In this document: positions 2,974 to 28,506 of the stretch, one piece after another
Layout: the number at the start of each line of letters is the position of its first letter
Position numbering within the stretch: the stretch's first letter is position 1
Assembly: GCA_016208495.1 (NCBI GenBank)
Contig: JACQXX010000061.1
Coordinates: 1 to 39,317, forward strand
DNA: 39,317 nt
Origin: Acidobacteriota bacterium
Lineage (GTDB): Bacteria; Acidobacteriota; Blastocatellia; Chloracidobacteriales; Chloracidobacteriaceae
Reading direction: 5' to 3'
The notes under the pieces: model-generated
What the model was told of the DNA's origin: nothing
Seen by the model: only the letters and a program-made list of their open reading frames with translations
Databases searched by the model: none
Translations under genes and position numbers: made by a program

Positions 2974-3046
2974 GGGTTCGGGGTTCGGGGTTCGGGGTTC
3001 GGGGTTCGGGGTTCGGGGTTCGGGGTTCGGGGTTCGGGGTTCGGGG
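2974..3046. repeat. Heptanucleotide tandem array (GGGTTCG)n
   Basis: Ten near-perfect consecutive 7 bp units (GGGTTCG) run from 2974 to 3046, with TTC recurring every seven bases. The array lies between the oxidoreductase start and the terminator of the calcium ATPase. Since 7 is not a multiple of 3, every frame reads the same stop-free seven-residue cycle (GSGFGVR), which makes a spurious open frame here. Related arrays occur inside the NRPS gene and near 37154. Heptanucleotide short tandemly repeated repetitive (STRR) sequences are known in cyanobacteria and are the closest named precedent. Confidence 0.95.
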
Positions 3047-3133
3047 TTTTCGAAGCCAGGCATCAGGCTTTCTTCATTCTTCCCTGGACACGATTGAGCC
3101 ATTCAAAAGGTTACAGCCGGTGAAAAAATTCAG

Positions 3134-8127: not shown

Positions 8128-9957
8128 GTGAAGATTGAAACCATTCAGGTTTTATTGATCGAAGATCACCCAGGTGACGCGCGACTGGTTCGTGAAATGC
8201 TGGCCGAGGCCAAAGACATTGTGTTTAGTGTTACCTCTGTCCGGCTGCTTTCCGAAGGTGTCACGATCCTGAAGCAGACAAAGGTGGATGTGGTTTTGCT
8301 TGACCTTTCGTTGCCGGATAGCAACGGCCTGGCGACGTTTGAAAGTATTCAGGATCAATTCCCTGAAACGCCGATGGTCTTGCTGACCGGATTTGAAGAT
8401 GTTTCGGTGGCTATTCATGCGTTGAATCTCGGAGCCCAGGATTATCTGGTCAAAGGGCAGGTGGATGGCAGTTTGCTGGAGCGGTCCCTCCGGTATGCCA
8501 TTGAACGTAAACGTGTTGAGGAAGCTTTAAAGCGGAGCGAGCGCCGCCTTCGATCAATGGTCGAGAATTTGCCCGCAGGCGCTGTGTATCGTGACGGCGA
8601 CTCAATTTTCTTTAACAAAGCGGTTGAAAAAATCACCGGCTATCAGCCATCGGAAATCACCACGATTTCAGACTGGTTTTCCTTGCTCTATGGTACTGAA
8701 GGCAACCGGTTTTTTGCTGAATATGAAGCGGATCGGGCGACTCAGTTTGCCGATTCCCGGATCCAGGCGATTATGCGCAAGGATGGACAGGTTCGGTTTG
8801 TTGAGTTTGCCGGTTACAGCTATGAGCAGGGTGAGGTCTGGCTGTTATATGACATTACCGAACGGCTGCAAGCCGAACAGCTTATCCGTGAACAGGCCAC
8901 CCTGTTGAATCAGTCACAGGATGCCATTTGGGTGCTTGACCGGGAGAATCGGGTTCAGTTTTGGAATCAAGGTGCTGAGCAGTTGTTTGAATGGAAAGCG
9001 GCGGAAGTGATGGGAAAGCCATTGGAAGCTGTTTTTCATGATTGCTGCCAGACCGAGCTGGTCGTTATCCAGAAGGAAATTGCGGAAAAAGGTGGCTGGC
9101 GTGGTGAATTGCATATGGCAACCAAGTCAGGAAGGGAACTGATTGTCGAAAGTCGCTGGACAGTTTCCTACGACAGTCAAGGCCGGCCCCAATCCAAACT
9201 CACGGTCAATACCGACATTTCCGACAAAAAGCGGCTTGAGAACGAATTTATGCGGGCGACCCAGCTTTCGTTAATTGGCGAGCTGGCTGCGGGCCTCGCC
9301 CACGAAATCAAGAACCCACTGGCTGGGATTCAAGGTGCGGTGGATATTTTGATTCGGCGGCGGTCACAAGGGGATCCGGAACGGACGGCGCTTGAAGCCG
9401 TTCGCCGCGAAGTCGGTCGAATTGATGGAACGGTTCGTGAATTGCTCAATCGGGCCCGGCCTCGGGCACTGACCCAGACCCCAACCTTGCTCAATGAAAT
9501 AGTCCGTCACGCCGTGGTTCTCTCCAGACATCAAGCAACCGTGGGACCAAATGCCGACCGTCGGATTTCAGTTGACCTGGAATTGCCAACCGATCCAATC
9601 GTTGCCTCAATTGATACCGCCCAAATGGAGGATGCAATTCTCAACCTGATCCTGAATGCGCTGGATGCGGTTGGTGATCGTGGGCAAATTACCGTTCGGC
9701 TCAAGCTGGTAAAACCTGATTCCCCAAACCATCCACTCGAAGCGGTGATCGAAGTCGAAGACAATGGTCGGGGAATTGCCGAACAGGATTTGGCCAAGAT
9801 TTTTCACCCGTTTTACACCACTTCTCCTCGTGGAACTGGCCTGGGTCTCCCCGCCGTCCGCCGGATTGCCCGCGCCCACGGTGGTCAGGTTGATGTGAAA
9901 TCAGAAATTGCCAAAGGCTCGACGTTTACGTTGCGCATCCCACTTGGCCAGAAGTGA
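8128..9957 (+). CDS. Receiver-PAS-PAS hybrid sensor histidine kinase
   Basis: The 609-residue protein has an N-terminal receiver (about 7-123; Asp59 in 'VDVVLLDLSLPDSNG', 'MVLLTGFED', 'YLVKGQ'), two PAS domains (about 140-250 and 255-370, the second opening 'LLNQSQDAIWVLDRENRVQ'), and a kinase core with His392 in 'ELAAGLAHEIKNPLAGIQG', an N box 'LILNALDAV', 'EDNGRGIAEQDLAKIF' and 'GTGLGLPAVRRI'. The H-box is of the NtrB/AtoS type. The front receiver would let it take phosphate from, or be inhibited by, the upstream kinase, making the three genes a likely local phosphorelay. The start is GTG with AAGGGAG ahead of it. No membrane segments are visible. The stop codon TGA (9955-9957) is itself part of the first unit of an 8 bp repeat array. 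Confidence 0.92.
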   Translation: MKIETIQVLLIEDHPGDARLVREMLAEAKDIVFSVTSVRLLSEGVTILKQTKVDVVLLDLSLPDSNGLATFESIQDQFPETPMVLLTGFEDVSVAIHALNLGAQDYLVKGQVDGSLLERSLRYAIERKRVEEALKRSERRLRSMVENLPAGAVYRDGDSIFFNKAVEKITGYQPSEITTISDWFSLLYGTEGNRFFAEYEADRATQFADSRIQAIMRKDGQVRFVEFAGYSYEQGEVWLLYDITERLQAEQLIREQATLLNQSQDAIWVLDRENRVQFWNQGAEQLFEWKAAEVMGKPLEAVFHDCCQTELVVIQKEIAEKGGWRGELHMATKSGRELIVESRWTVSYDSQGRPQSKLTVNTDISDKKRLENEFMRATQLSLIGELAAGLAHEIKNPLAGIQGAVDILIRRRSQGDPERTALEAVRREVGRIDGTVRELLNRARPRALTQTPTLLNEIVRHAVVLSRHQATVGPNADRRISVDLELPTDPIVASIDTAQMEDAILNLILNALDAVGDRGQITVRLKLVKPDSPNHPLEAVIEVEDNGRGIAEQDLAKIFHPFYTTSPRGTGLGLPAVRRIARAHGGQVDVKSEIAKGSTFTLRIPLGQK

Positions 9958-10072
9958 CAAGGTGACAAGGTGACAGGGTGACAAGATGACAAGGTGACAG
10001 GGTGACAGGGTGACAAGGTGACAAGGTGACAAGGTGACAGGGTGACAGGGTGACAGGGTGACAGGTGACAGG
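9954..10072. repeat. Octanucleotide tandem array (GTGACARG)n overlapping a stop codon
   Basis: About fifteen units of GTGACAAG or GTGACAGG run head to tail; one unit (10058-10064) has lost a base and another starts with A. The first unit supplies the TGA stop of the preceding kinase gene. The mix of AAG and AGG units indicates past amplification and point change. Spacing and identity are wrong for CRISPR. Confidence 0.95.
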
Positions 10073-10100
10073 GTGAAGTTTTCTCACTCTTCTGGATTGA

Positions 10101-17253: not shown

Positions 17254-17385
17254 ATTAGTGGTTAGTGATTAGTGGTTAGTGGTTAGTGATTAGTGCTTGG
17301 TACTTGGTGCTTTGTAACCAATTCTTTCTAAGAACCAAGAACCAAAAACCAAGAACTAACCACTAACCACTAACTACTAACCACC
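17254..17385. repeat. Heptad-phased inverted repeat element (TTAGTGG/CTTGGTA type)
   Basis: The left arm (17254-17316) consists of nine unbroken heptads: six of RTTAGTG, then CTTGGTA, CTTGGTG and CTTTGTA. The right arm (17332-17385) consists of seven heptads (GAACCAA twice, AAACCAA, GAACTAA, CCACTAA twice, CTACTAA) plus CCACC. The arms are imperfect reverse complements in mirrored order, separated by about 15 bases. The element fills the gap between the acetate kinase stop and the esterase start and could form a long hairpin in the transcript. Confidence 0.9.
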
Positions 17386-21430: not shown

Positions 21431-21458
21431 GAGTGGTGAGTAGCGAGTAGCGAGTAGT
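21431..21458. repeat. Heptad array (GAGTAGC)n, left arm
   Basis: Four heptads GAGTGGT, GAGTAGC, GAGTAGC and GAGTAGT run without gaps. They are the reverse complement of the array at 21658-21696. The second MITE-like element lies between them, so the set forms one larger inverted structure. Confidence 0.85.
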
Positions 21459-21657: not shown

Positions 21658-21696
21658 ACTATTCGCTACTCACTACTCGCTACTCCGGCGCTACTC
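21658..21696. repeat. Heptad array (GCTACTC)n, right arm, overlapping the NRPS stop
   Basis: Heptads ACTATTC, GCTACTC, ACTACTC and GCTACTC are followed by a 5-base interruption and CTACTC, which contains the TAG stop (21691-21693) of the NRPS on the minus strand. Read in the gene's direction, the first GAGTAG is the Glu codon plus the stop. The array is inverted relative to 21431-21458. Confidence 0.85.
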
Positions 21697-24600
21697 ATCT
21701 TCAAGCAGAGCGCGGATTTCCTCGGGTGAAAGGTGCTGGATTTCGGCCAGGAGTTCAGCCGCTTCGTCACTATCAGTTTGGGAAAGCTGATAGTCGGCGA
21801 TGGCTGAAGTCATGCTATCAATGGTTGGGGCGTCAAACAGGATTCGAAGCGGGAGTTCAACCCCAAACTGTTCGCGGATTTGAGAGGCGAGCCGGGTCAG
21901 AAGCAACGAATGCCCACCCAGTTCAAAGAAATTGTCATACACGCCGATTTGCTCGATTTTGAGGAGTTTGCTCCAGAGTTCGACCAGTTCTTCCTCAATC
22001 GGAGTCCGTGGGGCAACATAGTTCCCGGCCTGGACTGGACGCGAGACGCTTTGACCGAGGAGCGCGCGCTGGTCAATCTTGCCGCTGACGGTGAGCGGCA
22101 GGCTATCGAGCGGAGTAATCACCGCCGGGAGCATGTATTCCGGTAACCGCTCTTTTAAATAGGCCGTTAGCGCGGGCATGACGGCATCACCAGGTATGGT
22201 TTGATCAAGCACGACAAACGACACCAGGCGTGCTTCGCCAGTCGAAGACGTATCGGCCAGAACGACTGCTTTCACCACACCTTGCACGTTCTGCATCACG
22301 GCTTCGATTTCACCTAATTCAATGCGGAAGCCACGGATTTTCACCTGATTGTCGAGTCGCCCGAGAAACTCCAGCGTGCCGTCTTCAAGCCAGCGACCAA
22401 GGTCGCCAGTGCGATATAAAGACAGGGTTCGGGGCTCTAAAACCAGGGTTCGGGGTTCAGGGTTCAGGGTTTGGGGACTCCCTTTTGAGAGATTCAATAA
22501 ATCTTGAGCTTCTTTGCCATGAGCTTGATCAGATCCTTCTAATTCAGGAATCTTCAACCCTGAACCCTGAACCCTGAACCCTGATTGAAACCGTTCCTCT
22601 GTCAGTCCGGGTCGGTTAAGATAGCCACGGGCAACCCCCACCCCGCCAATGCAAATTTCACCTGGAATACCCGCCGGGAGCGGTTGCTGGGCGTGATCAA
22701 GGACATAAACCTGAACATTGTCAATGGGGCGGCCAATCGGCGGTTTTCGATTGGTTGGTGTGCAATGGTGGATCGTCGCGCAAACCGATGTTTCCGTTGG
22801 GCCATAGGCGTTCAAAAAACGCCGGTTCCGTCCCCATCGGTGCACGATATCCACCGAACAGGCTTCGCCAGCGGTGACCAGCGTGTGCAGGTGTGGCAAT
22901 TCGGCATCGGGCAAAACCGCCAGTACCGAAGGCGGCAGCGTGACGGTCGAGATATGCTCGCGGTGGAGAAGGTCAATCAATTCGGGGCCAGGCCGCAGAT
23001 CTTCTTTTGACGCCAGAACCAGCGTGGCTCCAGCCAGCAAAGTGGTAAACACTTCAGAGACCGAAGCGTCAAAACTCAGCGAAGCAAATTGAAGGACTCG
23101 TGATTTCCCGGTAATGCCAAACGCTTTGATCTGCGCCAGCGCCAGATTGGTCAAGCCACGATGCGGGATTAAGACCCCTTTCGGCAAACCGGTTGATCCA
23201 GAGGTATAAATCACATAGGCCAGGTTTTCCGGATCTGGCGTGGGGGATTGGAAAAATACCGATGGTGGGAAAAACTGACTGTCGAGCGCAATCACGGTCG
23301 GAATCTGGTCTGGAAGGCGGTCACGCATCTGGGTGGTGGTCAAAATTGATTTGAGCCCGGCATCTTGAATCATCCAGGACAGCCGTTCCTTGGGATACGC
23401 TGGGTCAAGCGGAACGTAAGCTGCACCCGCTTTCAAAATCCCGAGCATCCCCACCACCATTTCAAACGAACGGTCCAGACACAAGCCGACCAGAGATTCA
23501 ATTCCAACTCCGAGTGACGCCAGGTGTGAAGCGACCTGCGTGGCTCGCTGATTTAATTCGCGATAGGATACAGCTTTTCCCTGGAAAGTAACTGCCGTGG
23601 CAAACGGCGTGCGTTTCACCTGTTGTTCAAACAGGATATGGACTGGAACATTCAATGGAAAATCAGTGTGGGTTGCATTCCAGTCAATCGTGACTTGTTT
23701 GAATTCCGCCTCTGACAACAACGGGATTTCGGTTATCGGGATATCGGGATTTGTTGTGACGGTTTCAAGAATAATCTCCAAAATCTGCGCAAAACGTTGA
23801 ATGGTGGTGCTTTCAAACAATTCCCGGTTGTATTCCCAGGTGGATGTGATGCCATCCGCCGTTTCTCGGAAAAAGACGGTCAAATCCAGGTTTGACGTTC
23901 CTCGATCAATGGCCAGATTGATTTCCAACGGGCTCATTCTCAAGGTTTCGGCTTCTGTCGGAGTTTCAGGTCGGCGTGGATGACGAAGCGCTGATTCAAA
24001 TGAAAACATCACCTGCAACAATGGGGTGCGGCGTAAATCGCGCTCTGGTTGGAGTTCTTCAATCAGTTTTTCAAAAGGAAGGTCCTGATGGGCAAACGCC
24101 CCAAGCGCGGTGGTCCGAGTCTGACTGAGCAGGTCGGCAAAGGTAGGACGGTGAGTCAGTTTAGTGCGCAACACCAGAGTGTTCACAAAAAAGCCGATGA
24201 GTTTTTCAACTTCAAGGTGATTGCGATTGGTGACCGGAATTCCAACCAGCAGGTCTTCCTGGCCTGACAGGCGTGACAGCAGTACGTTGTACGCCGCAAA
24301 CAGGGTCATAAACGGCGTCACACCGTTAGCGTGGCTGAGGGCTTTTAATTTTTCGGTCGAAGTCCTTGAAAACGTGTGGCTTTCGCGCATTCCCCGATAT
24401 GCCCAGACTTCAGGCCGTGGTGAGTCAGTCGGCAGTTCCAGTACTGCCGGGGCCCCGGTGAGCTGGTCTTTCCAATACTTCAAATGTGCTTTGAGGACAT
24501 CACCTTGCAGCCAGTTCCGTTGCCAAACGGCAAAATCGGCGTACTGAATCGGAAGTGGCCGCAACGGAGAAGGCTCACCCTTTGAAAAGGCCCGGTAGAG

Positions 24601-27600
24601 GACCGCCAGTTCACGACCAAAAATTTCCAGCGACCAGCCGTCGGAAATAATGTGATGAACCGCGAAAAAGAGAATCCAGGATTCCGGTGCAAGCTGGATA
24701 AGTGCCACTCGCAAGAGCGGCCCCGTGGTCAATTGAAAGGGTTTACGGCCTTCTCGGGCGAGGAATTCTTCAATTCGAGCACGGCGTTCTTCAGGGGAAC
24801 TTGCGTCCTGAACGTTGATGACCTCGATTTGGAACCGGAGCGTTCGATGAATAACCTGGATTGGCTGTCCATTGACGGTTTCAAATGACGTCCGCAGCAC
24901 TTCATGGCGCTCAATAATTTCCACAAAACACCGTTCCAGAACCGCGAGGTCCAGCTTGCCATGCAGTCGAACCCCGCCCGCCAGCGGTTCGCTGGGTTCA
25001 AGCTGTTCCATAAACCAGGTGCGAAGCTGCGAAAATGAAAGCGGTAACGGATGTTCCCTGGATACAGCCACCAGTGGCGGCGGCGGGGCACTGGCTGCGG
25101 ATCCGCCAGAAGCTCCCTGAAGTTGTTGACGGGTAATCCAGCTTGCCTGTTGCGCCACGGTTGGAGCTTCAAAGATCAGGCTCAGCGGCAGATCAAGTTG
25201 AAATGTTTCGCGGAGTCGGGATGCCAGTTGAGTTGCAAGCAGCGAATGACCGCCCAGAGCAAAAAAATTGGAATGGCGGTGAACCGTGGGCAGATGCAGG
25301 ACTTGAGACCAGAGATCAGCCACCATTTCCTCAACTGGGGTCTGCGGGACCGCCTGGGATTCCTGATCGTCGGCTCGAAGAATTCGCTCTGGCGCGGGGA
25401 GGGCCCGACGATCAATCTTTCCGCTTGGTGAAATCGGCAGCGCTTCAAGGACCACAAATACTGTCGGCACCATAAACTCAGGCAACCGGTGCCTCAAAAA
25501 ATCTGCTATTTCAACCTGTTGCTGGGTTGAAATCCCAGGTTGAAATCCCAGGGAAAGCGATCCCGTGGATGGTCTGGCTGGCTGGTTGAGCACGACATAA
25601 GCCGTCAGTTGTTTACCAGTTTGGGCATCATCGCGAGCCACCACAACCGATTCCTTGACCAGTGGATGATGATTGAGGACGGCTTCGATTTCTCCAAGCT
25701 CGATTCGATGCCCACGAAGTTTCACCTGATCGTCAATGCGCCCAAGAAATTCAATCTGCCCGTCGGCCCGATAGCGGGCGAGGTCACCGGTTTTGTACAG
25801 GGTTCGGGGTTCAGGGTTCGGGGTTCGGGGTTTAGAAAGTGTGCTGCCATGGGTCAGCGGTACTTTCAAATCCTGTCCTAAATTTGCTGATTCTGAGGCT
25901 GTCGTTTGTCCCAACGTGTCAGAGTCTGAATCCCTGAACCCTGAACCCTGAACCCTGAACCCTGGTTTCTCAACCCTGAACTCTGGTTTCTCAACCCTGA
26001 ACCCTGGTTTCTCAACCCTGAACCCTGGTTTAAACCGCTCCGCTGTCAATTCTGGTTGATTGAGATACCCACGTGCCAGGCTGACTCCACCAATCCAGAG
26101 TTCGCCAGGAACATCAACCGGGACCGGCTGCCCGTGTTGATCAAGCAGGAAAATTTGGATGTTGGCCACCGGACGGCCAATGGTTGGGTGATGGTCAGTT
26201 GGTTCGCAATCGGTAAATGTGGCGCAAACAGTGGCCTCAGTCGGACCATAGGCATTGATGAATCTCCGACCTGGACGGGTCCACTTTTGAACCAGTTCTG
26301 CGGTGCAGGATTCACCAGCAGTAATCAGAGTGCGGAGCGCCGGGTATTCGCCCTCCGGCAAAGCGGCAGCGGCTGACGGTGGTAAGGTGGCGACATTGAT
26401 TTGGTGATGCGTGAGGAACTGAGCCAGTTCCGCTCCTGGCATCAAGTCAACCCGAGTCCCCAGATACAGCGTTGAGCCGCCCACCAGCGTCGCAAAAATC
26501 TCGAACACTGAGGCATCAAAACTCAAAGACGAAAATTGGACCACCCGTGAACCAGGGGCAAACCCCATGTCCTGGATTTGAGCCAGTGCCAGATTGCACA
26601 ACCCTTGATGTTGAAGCAGCGTGCCTTTGGGCGTGCCAGTTGACCCCGAGGTATAAATCACATAAGCCAGATGGTGGGAGGTGGCTTCAACTGGAAAAGG
26701 CCGGTGTGAAAGCGTGGGCAATGGCTGGTCCAGGTAAACCACCTGGCTTCCGTACCGGGGAAGGCGGGACAACAGAACAGATTGGGTCACAAGGACCGGA
26801 ACCTGTGAATCCGCAAGCATAAATGCCAGCCGTTCTTTTGGATATGACGGATCAAGCGGAACAAAAGCGCCTCCGGCTTTCAAGATACCGAGCATTCCCA
26901 CCAGCATTTCAATTGATCGGTTCACACACAGACCGACCAGGGTTTCTGGTTTGACGCCAAGCAATTGCAGGTAGAACGCAAGTTGATCAGCCCGGTAATT
27001 GAGTTCGCGATAGGTAACGGACTGGTCCTGGAAGACAACCGCCACCGCCTCTGGTGTTTTCCGAACCTGTTGCTCAAACAGGTGATGGATGCACTTTTCA
27101 TCAGGGAATGGACGGGACGTCGGGTTCCATTCAACCAGGATTTTATGTCGTTCAGCTTCGGATAAGGGTGACCAGTGGTTGAGGGTTTGATCTGGTGATT
27201 GAGTCAGATTTTCAAGCAGGGCGATCATTTGTCCGACCAGACCGGAAACAAACTCACCTGGAAAAATGGCTTCATCATACACCGCCAGAAAATGAAGTTC
27301 TCTCCCCGGCGCCGCCACAAAGGTTAGTGGATAATTGGTGGTGCCACGCGCCTTTACTTTTTCAAGGGAGATGGTGGTGGGGCGTTCCTGGCCGGTTGTC
27401 AGGTTTGGCGGTGAAGGGTAGTTTTCAAAAATAAAAAGTGTGTCAAACAGGGCCGTTCCAGGTGGAATTTCGCTCCATCCCTGAATGTGCACCAGGGGAG
27501 TGGATTCAAACTGTCGCATTTCAGCCTGTTGAACCTGGAGTTTGGCCAGCCACTCCATGACAGGTACGTCTGCAGGAACCGTCGCCCGGAGTGGCAAGGT

Positions 27601-28506
27601 GTTGATAAACAAGCCAAGCATCGCATCAGATCCAGCCAGTTCGGGAGGGCGGCCTGAAACTGTGACGCCAAACACCACATCTTCAGCCGTGGTGTGGACA
27701 CTCATCAATTTGGTCCAGGCGCCCAAAACCAGGGTGTTGAGTGTGATTTGGTGTTCCCGTGCCAGCATTGCCAGTTGCTCGCTGGTGGCTTCATCCAGGT
27801 TGAACTCGTACCGCGCAGGCTGGGAGGCGGTGTTGTTCGTGTCTTGAAAGGCACTCAAATACGTCGGGGCTGAAAATCCCTGGAGGTACTGTCTCCAATA
27901 CTGTTCAGCCTGCTCGACTGACTGTTCTTTCAACCAGCCAATATAATCTCGATAGGGACGCACCGGAGGCAGGGTTGGCACCCGATTCTGCCGGATGGCT
28001 TCATAGGCGGCAAATACCTCGCGCAACACGATGGGCACTCCCCATCCATCAAGGAGCAAATGGTGGTGGCACCAGATGAATTGAAATTCTGACTCGCCGC
28101 ACTGGATCAATGCCAGGGACATCAACGGCGCCTGCGTCAGTTCAAACCCCTGTGTTCGTTGTTGGGTAAGGAATTCATCAAATTGTGCTTCTTGATCGGT
28201 TTGGGTCAGATTCCGCCAGTCGTGAAACTCAAATGGGACTTTGACATCCAATTGAACCACCTGTAATGGTTCGTCCAATCCCTCCCAAACAAAGGCCGTT
28301 CGCAAAATCGAATGGCGCTCAACCAGGATGTGCCAGGCTCGCTCAAAAGCGACTGCATCAAGGGTCCCCTTGATGGTACAGGCCATTTGCTCGATATACA
28401 GACCCGCGCCGGGGGTGAGCAGTGAGTGAAACAACATCCCCTGCTGCAAAGGAGACAGTGGGTAAATATCTTCAATTTGCGTGGATGGAAGTTCTTCAAA
28501 TGCCAT
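21691..28506 (-). CDS. Dimodular non-ribosomal peptide synthetase (C-A-PCP-C-A-PCP)
   Basis: The 2271-residue enzyme reads C1 (His motif 'HHHLLLDGWG', about 145-154), A1 (about 480-1010, 'YTSGSTGTPKG'), PCP1 (Ser about 1088, 'LGGHSLLATQL'), C2 ('HHIISDGWS', about 1284), A2 ('YTSGSTGLPKG', about 1768) and PCP2 (Ser about 2200). Catalytic motifs are intact. By hand alignment to the PheA pocket the codes are D-A-F-T-I-A-A-V-C-K (close to Phe codes) and D-A-S-T-V-A-A-V-C-K (a published Tyr type), suggesting an aromatic dipeptide unit. A leading C domain implies an upstream acyl or peptidyl donor, and no thioesterase or reductase follows PCP2, so release is unexplained. No MbtH or phosphopantetheinyl transferase gene is in the window. 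Both A domains carry an in-frame heptad-repeat insertion between motifs A6 and A7. Confidence 0.95.
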   Translation of the reverse strand: MAFEELPSTQIEDIYPLSPLQQGMLFHSLLTPGAGLYIEQMACTIKGTLDAVAFERAWHILVERHSILRTAFVWEGLDEPLQVVQLDVKVPFEFHDWRNLTQTDQEAQFDEFLTQQRTQGFELTQAPLMSLALIQCGESEFQFIWCHHHLLLDGWGVPIVLREVFAAYEAIRQNRVPTLPPVRPYRDYIGWLKEQSVEQAEQYWRQYLQGFSAPTYLSAFQDTNNTASQPARYEFNLDEATSEQLAMLAREHQITLNTLVLGAWTKLMSVHTTAEDVVFGVTVSGRPPELAGSDAMLGLFINTLPLRATVPADVPVMEWLAKLQVQQAEMRQFESTPLVHIQGWSEIPPGTALFDTLFIFENYPSPPNLTTGQERPTTISLEKVKARGTTNYPLTFVAAPGRELHFLAVYDEAIFPGEFVSGLVGQMIALLENLTQSPDQTLNHWSPLSEAERHKILVEWNPTSRPFPDEKCIHHLFEQQVRKTPEAVAVVFQDQSVTYRELNYRADQLAFYLQLLGVKPETLVGLCVNRSIEMLVGMLGILKAGGAFVPLDPSYPKERLAFMLADSQVPVLVTQSVLLSRLPRYGSQVVYLDQPLPTLSHRPFPVEATSHHLAYVIYTSGSTGTPKGTLLQHQGLCNLALAQIQDMGFAPGSRVVQFSSLSFDASVFEIFATLVGGSTLYLGTRVDLMPGAELAQFLTHHQINVATLPPSAAAALPEGEYPALRTLITAGESCTAELVQKWTRPGRRFINAYGPTEATVCATFTDCEPTDHHPTIGRPVANIQIFLLDQHGQPVPVDVPGELWIGGVSLARGYLNQPELTAERFKPGFRVEKPGFRVEKPEFRVEKPGFRVQGSGFRDSDSDTLGQTTASESANLGQDLKVPLTHGSTLSKPRTPNPEPRTLYKTGDLARYRADGQIEFLGRIDDQVKLRGHRIELGEIEAVLNHHPLVKESVVVARDDAQTGKQLTAYVVLNQPARPSTGSLSLGFQPGISTQQQVEIADFLRHRLPEFMVPTVFVVLEALPISPSGKIDRRALPAPERILRADDQESQAVPQTPVEEMVADLWSQVLHLPTVHRHSNFFALGGHSLLATQLASRLRETFQLDLPLSLIFEAPTVAQQASWITRQQLQGASGGSAASAPPPPLVAVSREHPLPLSFSQLRTWFMEQLEPSEPLAGGVRLHGKLDLAVLERCFVEIIERHEVLRTSFETVNGQPIQVIHRTLRFQIEVINVQDASSPEERRARIEEFLAREGRKPFQLTTGPLLRVALIQLAPESWILFFAVHHIISDGWSLEIFGRELAVLYRAFSKGEPSPLRPLPIQYADFAVWQRNWLQGDVLKAHLKYWKDQLTGAPAVLELPTDSPRPEVWAYRGMRESHTFSRTSTEKLKALSHANGVTPFMTLFAAYNVLLSRLSGQEDLLVGIPVTNRNHLEVEKLIGFFVNTLVLRTKLTHRPTFADLLSQTRTTALGAFAHQDLPFEKLIEELQPERDLRRTPLLQVMFSFESALRHPRRPETPTEAETLRMSPLEINLAIDRGTSNLDLTVFFRETADGITSTWEYNRELFESTTIQRFAQILEIILETVTTNPDIPITEIPLLSEAEFKQVTIDWNATHTDFPLNVPVHILFEQQVKRTPFATAVTFQGKAVSYRELNQRATQVASHLASLGVGIESLVGLCLDRSFEMVVGMLGILKAGAAYVPLDPAYPKERLSWMIQDAGLKSILTTTQMRDRLPDQIPTVIALDSQFFPPSVFFQSPTPDPENLAYVIYTSGSTGLPKGVLIPHRGLTNLALAQIKAFGITGKSRVLQFASLSFDASVSEVFTTLLAGATLVLASKEDLRPGPELIDLLHREHISTVTLPPSVLAVLPDAELPHLHTLVTAGEACSVDIVHRWGRNRRFLNAYGPTETSVCATIHHCTPTNRKPPIGRPIDNVQVYVLDHAQQPLPAGIPGEICIGGVGVARGYLNRPGLTEERFQSGFRVQGSGLKIPELEGSDQAHGKEAQDLLNLSKGSPQTLNPEPRTLVLEPRTLSLYRTGDLGRWLEDGTLEFLGRLDNQVKIRGFRIELGEIEAVMQNVQGVVKAVVLADTSSTGEARLVSFVVLDQTIPGDAVMPALTAYLKERLPEYMLPAVITPLDSLPLTVSGKIDQRALLGQSVSRPVQAGNYVAPRTPIEEELVELWSKLLKIEQIGVYDNFFELGGHSLLLTRLASQIREQFGVELPLRILFDAPTIDSMTSAIADYQLSQTDSDEAAELLAEIQHLSPEEIRALLEDE
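22425..22582. repeat. Heptad-phased inverted element inside adenylation domain 2
   Basis: The left arm is eight in-phase heptads starting GGGTTCG at 22425 and ending at 22480 (including GGGCTCT, AAAACCA and GGGTTTG variants). The right arm is CAACCCT plus three GAACCCT (22555-22582), the reverse complement type. About 74 bases of non-repeat DNA lie between. It is translated in frame as an extra loop of about 53 residues (about 1975-2027), from 'FRVQGSGLK' to 'TLNPEPRTL', directly before the YRTGDL core motif. Confidence 0.9.
25800..26029. repeat. Heptad-phased inverted element inside adenylation domain 1
   Basis: The left arm is five heptads (GGGTTCG, GGGTTCA, GGGTTCG twice, GGGTTTA; 25800-25834). 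The right arm is fourteen uninterrupted heptads of CCCTGAA, CCCTGGT and TTCTCAA types (25932-26029). The spacer is 97 bases. In the coding direction it gives four tandem GFRVEKP-like heptapeptides, a polar spacer and 'PRTPNPEPRTL', about 76 extra residues (about 827-902) before YKTGDL. Confidence 0.92.

Follow-up and report, generated by a model that had tools for sequence, protein, structure and literature searches.

How can an NRPS carry a long inverted array of 7-bp repeats inside an adenylation (A) domain and still be read through it? The question is raised by the window, the whole stretch of 39,317 nucleotides of an Acidobacteriota bacterium analysed here (the genome is called the source genome below). 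The original prediction placed such an array between motifs A6 and A7 of the first A domain of an NRPS gene, held that it added about 76 residues that no A domain needs, and offered two readings, a phase-variable NRPS or a repeat element that the protein tolerates. The features on which the following analysis rests are collected in Table 1; motif names (A1-A10) are used as we assume them to apply to these A domains.

Table 1. Repeat elements of the window and the NRPS gene that contains two of them; arms of the NRPS elements are named in the coding direction.
Feature	Position	Strand	Basis
NRPS gene, 2271 aa, C-A-PCP-C-A-PCP	21691..28506	-	open frame and Pfam domains
Heptad element filling the A6-A7 loop of A domain 1, 78 residues	25798..26031	-	motif borders
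G-rich arm of the A domain 1 element, ~14 heptads = 4.8 copies of a 21-bp (3-heptad) unit	25932..26031	-	
Spacer of the A domain 1 element, ~99 bp	25833..25931	-	genome search
C-rich arm of the A domain 1 element, 4.7 heptads	25800..25832	-	repeat and inverted-repeat finding
Second heptad element, A6-A7 loop of A domain 2, 57 residues	22417..22587	-	repeats and motif borders
G-rich arm of the A domain 2 element	22556..22584	-	array calls
C-rich arm of the A domain 2 element	22446..22471	-	array calls
Inverted heptad pair outside the NRPS gene, TTAGTGG / ACTAACC	17255..17381	.	array calls

The inverted heptad structure in A domain 1 is real, its arrays and inverted arms having been found again by Tandem Repeats Finder and by a repeat search. 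Tandem Repeats Finder reported GGGTTCG at 25800-25832 (4.7 copies, 92% matches) and a 7-mer at 25926-26027 (14.4 copies, 67% matches); the stretch 25932-26031 is better described as a higher-order repeat of three heptads, with 91% matches over its 4.8 copies. The inverted arms, at 25798-25833 and 25929-25964, are 36 nt each and 89% complementary with 95 nt between them, and the mRNA hairpin predicted for the element has a z of -6.1. As predicted, the element lies in frame between A6 and A7: it is flanked by LTAERF (26032-26049) and LYKTGDL (25780-25800), and the frame of 2271 aa stays open throughout.

The estimate of about 76 added residues holds for the element, which encodes 78, but overstates the net gain, which is about 65 because a 13-residue linker is replaced. 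That no A domain needs these residues fits the 10-13 residues found at this place in 11/11 motif-found A domains in stretches of four related genomes. When A domain 1 was aligned with A domains of solved structure, the best alignment shown, with linear gramicidin synthase, matched residues 2-356 and 430/432-571 and left about 75 residues (357-431) without a counterpart. Pfam recognized the usual NRPS domains only in the window protein (Condensation, AMP-binding, PP-binding and AMP-binding_C, two stretches each) and no auxiliary catalytic domain in the insert, which is repeat-encoded, and Rfam gave no RNA family match in the window at the gathering score. An AlphaFold2 model of A domain 1, built from 8 sequences, was poor (mean pLDDT 64), with pLDDT below 50 for residues 326-440 and neither helix nor strand in residues 356-438; it is consistent with, and lends weak support to, the element being a disordered loop, though such a model proves little.

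The original prediction left unmentioned that A domain 2 of the same gene has an element as well, with a predicted mRNA hairpin of z = -6.3. Over 160 bp this second element is 88% identical in DNA to the loop of another NRPS (C118:63661-63820), and the similarity begins directly after ARGYL and ends directly before YRTGDL, identity per 60-column row being 85-92% inside and 45-75% outside. Since a comparison of just the spacers gives 87% identity over 82 bp (z 25), against 53% and 57% for the DNA flanking the two loops, we conclude that one heptad element was copied between divergent A domains. Among the matches listed, the A domain 2 spacer recurred in the source genome in only two other NRPS loops, and the A domain 1 spacer (99-bp query, 25834-25932) found only itself. 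A comparison of 28 spacer pairs from 8 loops yielded 10 with z > 3 against mononucleotide shuffles (the A domain 2/C118 pair at 25, one at 7.2 and eight at 3.3-5.8), some of them resting on very short stretches; none involved the A domain 1 spacer. The copied loop gave a pN/pS of 0.43 (33 codons, 13 differences), a value from a single comparable loop that would lie below strict neutrality.

To see how widely such loops occur, PF00501 domains were listed in the source genome (24) and in a genome of a sister genus (40), and five cut domains and one more were excluded. Arrays sit in the A6-A7 loop of 10/11 NRPS A domains of the source genome, the remaining one having the canonical 13 residues, and of 11/22 in the sister genus (C24:5007 included), where the other 11 comprise two long loops in which no array was called (C72:192868 and C67:9) and nine short loops. 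In other AMP-binding enzymes the A6-A7 loop held an array in 0/13 cases (source genome) and 0/12 (sister genus), counts made after rechecking five enzymes whose A7 motif had been missed or misread. Sequence, length and unit vary among the array-bearing loops, those of the ten source-genome domains measuring 29-88 residues from the GYL motif to A7. The repeats are unlikely to be an artefact of assembly, because equivalent elements occur on four source-genome contigs and also in the sister genus. At one sister-genus locus (L034:294-410) the A6-A7 loop is filled by a different inverted repeat, CGCAGAG / CTCTGCG, which the array caller missed. Arrays within 500 nt downstream of two other AMP-binding domains (C180 and C9) lie outside the protein, after the stop codon; these genes are acyl-CoA-ligase-like (L129, G001:C180:9618; L130, G001:C9:44096), and their inverted arrays start 11 and 7 nt past the stop codon, as if some elements occupied terminator positions.

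The A6-A7 loop is one of three places where NRPS frames hold arrays. When 70 arrays were mapped in these frames, all but 2 lay directly before A3, before A7 or about 77-97 residues past A7; the exceptions were an array in C118 that follows the last carrier domain and an array in C67 that precedes A5. The sites a2-a3 and a8-a9, known from interrupted A domains, both hold in-frame arrays, in A domains other than the two of the window. We take all three loops, a2-a3, a6-a7 and a8-a9, to lie on the surface of the A domain. Array density in NRPS frames was 29 in 43.8 kb in the source genome and 40 in 70.9 kb in the sister genus, a count that required longer open frames than the map and therefore has one array fewer. 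An in-frame CTCAGTC array outside any A domain was seen in a linker of a 3391-aa sister-genus protein (L127:2127-2152), followed downstream by what is presumably the start of a ketosynthase. For comparison, most inter-motif regions of 7,329 NRPS domains vary in length by a standard deviation below 10 aa (PMC10212144).

The arrays within NRPS frames carry the mark of the reading frame. In source-genome loops, where the C-rich unit xGAACC is read with xGA as a codon, T occupies x in 0/10 cases (9 C, 1 G); in the other phases of the loops T stands there in 10/15, and in non-coding arrays in 87/129 (Fisher p = 0.001 and 3e-5, respectively). The zero is forced by the open frame, and the telling point is that T is common in the other phases. 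The unit is stop-free in the coding orientation in 26/29 NRPS arrays of the source genome and 37/40 of the sister genus, compared with expected shares of 0.52 and 0.60 worked out from the strand counts of sampled arrays; for CTCAGTC-family arrays the figure is 21/21. From this bias, and from TGA occurring only outside the read phase, it follows that the arrays are either translated or, at a minimum, maintained in a readable state. The second reading of the original prediction, a protein-tolerated repeat element, is thus well supported by arrays at the same place in 10/11 and 11/22 NRPS A domains, all in open frame, and further by TGA missing only in the read phase and by the missing counterpart in the solved A domain.

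The elements belong to a large population of arrays. Among periods of 4-24, exact arrays of at least 3 copies were commonest at period 7 in the source genome, with 51 in 400 kb; the sister genus had 64 period-7 arrays in 200 kb and a genome of the same class 2 in 100 kb. Another genus of the same family gave 1 exact hit in 100 kb, probably a homopolymer or masked run; the hit is doubtful, all periods of 4-24 having scored in that sample, in which a tolerant array caller found 0 period-7 arrays. First-order Markov shuffles, one per sampled sequence, contained 0 exact period-7 arrays of at least 3 copies. Set against the 51 in 400 kb, and with the hairpin score given above, this places the A domain 1 element beyond chance. 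The tolerant caller found 108 arrays of 6-10 bp in the source genome (400 kb) and 92 in the sister genus (200 kb); arrays of 8 bp were the second commonest class in the source-genome sample (29/108), and some sister-genus arrays have units of 9 bp. By exact arrays the two genomes have 16 and 15 unit families. The probe GGGTTCA x3 + GGG was present in 5/297 genomes of the phylum, the source genome included, with 1134 hits in the source genome, 709 in the sister genus and 39, 5 and 4 in three others, and it had 1 hit in a further genome outside this sample.

Outside NRPS genes, the arrays are largely kept out of proteins. In the same samples, ORFs of at least 150 aa cover 84% (source genome) and 89% (sister genus) of the DNA, and arrays deep inside such ORFs amount to 1/108 and 1/92, the NRPS genes being the exception. 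The sister-genus case is a 6-bp, proline-rich one. The sole deep-ORF array of the source sample is a C-rich arm in an ORF of 1180 aa (L053:9100-9132). Being 7-bp, dispersed and mostly extragenic, the population has the features of bacterial heptanucleotide tandem repeats (long simple sequence repeats, STRR type).

Arrays that lie within 300 bp of each other often form inverted pairs. The sister genus had 26 same-unit inverted, 0 direct and 9 different-unit neighbours, the source genome 12, 10 and 17, and the window 3, 0 and 1; label shuffles gave mean inverted counts of 3.4, 2.1 and 0.45, respectively. Same-unit inverted neighbours thus exceed the shuffles, and in the source genome direct same-unit neighbours are about as frequent as inverted ones. 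The G-rich arm came first in 40/41 inverted pairs (13/14 unit families), an order that is identical on the opposite strand. Two arrays of one unit, close together on opposite strands and with the G-rich arm leading, reproduce the convergent inverted heptad pair of the Xanthomonas type. A general hairpin bias does not readily account for this polarity: ordinary inverted repeats were 36:26 (G-first:C-first) in the source genome and 13:8 in the sister genus, compared with 131:1 and 186:7 for array-overlapping inverted repeats, whose counts are not independent. Contrary to this control, however, the same-class genome with few arrays gave 19:2 for ordinary inverted repeats; another comparison genome gave 4:2, and its additional 9953 'even' hits are probably masked runs. 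In a few pairs (L068:1993, L060:16560) the variant units of one arm mirror those of the other, but most pairs have no variants or differ. Four TTAGTGG-family elements (L045:18941, L051:13518, L053:9991 and L055:18266) have a common spacer, AAATCAATACTTTCGAAGAA, on either strand, and members of this family may thus have spread as whole copies; in the window, the TTAGTGG element does not contain the spacer AAATCAATACTTTCGAAGAA.

One natural A-core swap was seen, between C118:50180 and C28:107216 of the source genome. From about A2 to the A6-A7 loop, which forms its right edge, 12/13 blocks of 25 residues are 76-100% identical in amino acids, the 13th, at the a2-a3 loop, being 56% identical; blocks outside are 20-76% identical. 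The pN/pS of this pair, 0.14, is consistent with purifying selection on both A-core copies. The a2-a3 heptads differ in unit between the two sisters, so the array sequence changes more rapidly than the sequence on either side of it, without loss of period or frame. In a scan for more breakpoints the threshold was too low for counting, and only the best-scoring rows were used.

Collectively, these results lead us to think it probable that lineage-specific repeats, filtered by reading frame, are tolerated in permissive A-domain loops and spread by gene conversion. The short tandem arrays, chiefly of 7 bp with some of 8 and 9 bp, make up a large population specific to this lineage; they would arise and change by local expansion, presumably through replication slippage within arms, and many of them form inverted pairs in which a repeated unit is followed by a spacer and by repeats of its reverse complement. 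Selection would clear arrays from almost all genes; NRPS A domains would be exempt because three surface loops (a2-a3, a6-a7 and a8-a9) accept extra residues. Arrays readable without a stop would be kept there as long, probably unstructured loops that would be neutral or nearly so, and a loop, once present, could be copied from A domain to A domain via gene conversion or recombination. Against this explanation, plain tolerance does not fully account for the near-absence of arrays in other proteins, slippage alone does not predict the G-rich-first rule (40/41), the pN/pS of the copied loop appears lower than strictly neutral, and the source genome has about as many direct same-unit neighbours (10) as inverted ones (12), beside 17 of different unit.

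Phase variation, whereby gain or loss of a 7-bp unit would shift the frame and switch the NRPS on or off, is very unlikely. Its unit length is indeed not a multiple of three, and TGA in the unread phases of the C-rich arm (10/15) means that a one-unit change would stop translation, but an ON/OFF switch should leave some domains OFF, and 0/33 NRPS A domains (11 + 22) are out of frame at the A6-A7 loop, so that this reading of the original prediction found no support. Moreover, the 9-bp units of some sister-genus arrays cannot shift the frame, and the long arm of A domain 1 proceeds in frame-keeping 21-bp steps, a weak point because a 21-bp period is also seen outside the NRPS gene, in the array at 17255. 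We also think it improbable that the loop is functional, as a peptide, mRNA hairpin or G-quadruplex acting, for example, in ribosome pausing while the A domain folds or in inter-module docking. The very stable mRNA hairpins predicted for both window elements, the presence in 10/11 A domains of one genome and the pN/pS of 0.43 would agree with a function, but sequence, unit and length (29-88 residues) vary among domains, and a called array is missing from the loop in 1/11 domains of the source genome and 11/22 of the sister genus.

Somewhat more credible, though still unlikely, is that near-identical a2-a3 and a6-a7 arrays serve as recombination handles for exchange of the pocket segment and are kept because swapping pays. 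A-core swapping is known to drive NRPS evolution (PMC8097286), the one natural swap seen here has its right edge at the A6-A7 loop, and other similarity islands among the best-scoring rows of the breakpoint scan centre on that loop. However, only one swap is clear, its partner C28:107216 lacks an A6-A7 element, so that a shared repeat is not visible at the breakpoint today, no array was called at its left edge, the boundaries of published A-core swaps are diverse (PMC8097286), and arrays also occur in a8-a9, which does not bound the pocket. A long shot, in our judgement, is that the arrays are actively written where DNA is broken or gapped, both 3' ends being extended by G-rich repeats of one unit with telomere-like polarity, and that the loops bordering the substrate pocket of A domains take up the products in frame and use them as crossover points for specificity segments; extension of both 3' ends would give convergent, G-rich-first arms with a common unit, whatever the unit. 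Scarcely credible is transposase-driven insertion of a MITE-like mobile element whose termini are heptads. The inverted arms match and the TTAGTGG family outside NRPS genes has a spacer common to four copies, but the 41 pairs span 14 unit families, and among the matches listed the A domain 1 spacer is unique and that of A domain 2 is found in two other NRPS loops, which speaks against a dispersed element with a fixed spacer; among these matches neither window element showed the conserved sequence at many sites that characterizes MITE and REP-RAYT elements. IS200-like/RAYT transposases (PF01797), the family searched, are present but improbable as mobiliser, their counts across 39 genomes, source genome included, being ordinary (9 and 11 in the two genomes vs 0-14 in others).

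Degenerate heptads on both arms of a hairpin are also found in P6b of the cyanobacterial tRNA-Leu intron; P6b, unlike the present elements, is the stem of an RNA intron and non-coding. Also comparable are the GGGNATC heptad repeats described from Xanthomonas and Nostoc, which form convergent inverted pairs (70 and 75 cases in two Xanthomonas genomes) and are intragenic in 11% and 7% (PMC4692102). The arrays studied here resemble them as G-rich, dispersed, mostly intergenic 7-bp tandem arrays with inverted pairs, but differ from that system of one unit type in having many unit families per genome, 8- and 9-bp units and an in-frame hotspot within NRPS A domains. The TAACTGA heptad repeats of Beggiatoaceae, Cyanobacteria and Bacteroidetes, of which the main genome has 169 direct sets and a single indirect repeat, lie in some ORFs in a stop-free orientation, as here, mostly at protein ends or in hypothetical proteins and once in an RNA polymerase beta-prime-like protein; they too consist of one unit, unlike the many found here (PMC4679880). 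In interrupted A domains extra sequence is tolerated at a2-a3 and a8-a9, as here, but those inserts are catalytic (methylation, oxidation, ketoreduction), whereas ours are repeat-encoded and use a third site, a6-a7 (PMC11355689); the phrase 'a6 and a7' is absent from that paper. The A-core swap found here is like those described in PMC8097286, and differs from them in that its right edge falls at a loop bearing repeats in 10/11 domains. Inverted heptad arrays (PMC4692102) and two of the three loops as insertion sites (PMC11355689) are therefore known in kind; the combination, the many unit families and the a6-a7 hotspot were not found in the literature searched, and no paper on repeats in A-domain loops was found among open-licence PMC papers.

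These results show that bacterial repeats of a mostly non-coding class can become part of large enzymes time and again, with the frame preserved and in the same three loops, and can be copied between domains. A natural experiment has in this way mapped the permissive loops of A domains, a6-a7 included, which is of use to NRPS engineering, and the two genomes lend themselves to studying the origin of inverted heptad arrays and the reason for the leading position of the G-rich arm.

Further arrays of the window lie outside the A domains. An inverted pair GAGTAGC / ACTACTC (21438-21457 and 21658-21685, about 200 bp apart) is located just downstream of the NRPS gene. Between two ORFs, 10.7 perfect copies of GGGTTCG occupy 2974-3048, and an inverse array was not called nearby. 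Where a histidine kinase gene (8128-9957) ends, an 8-bp unit, GTGACAAG, is repeated 15.5 times (9954-10076).
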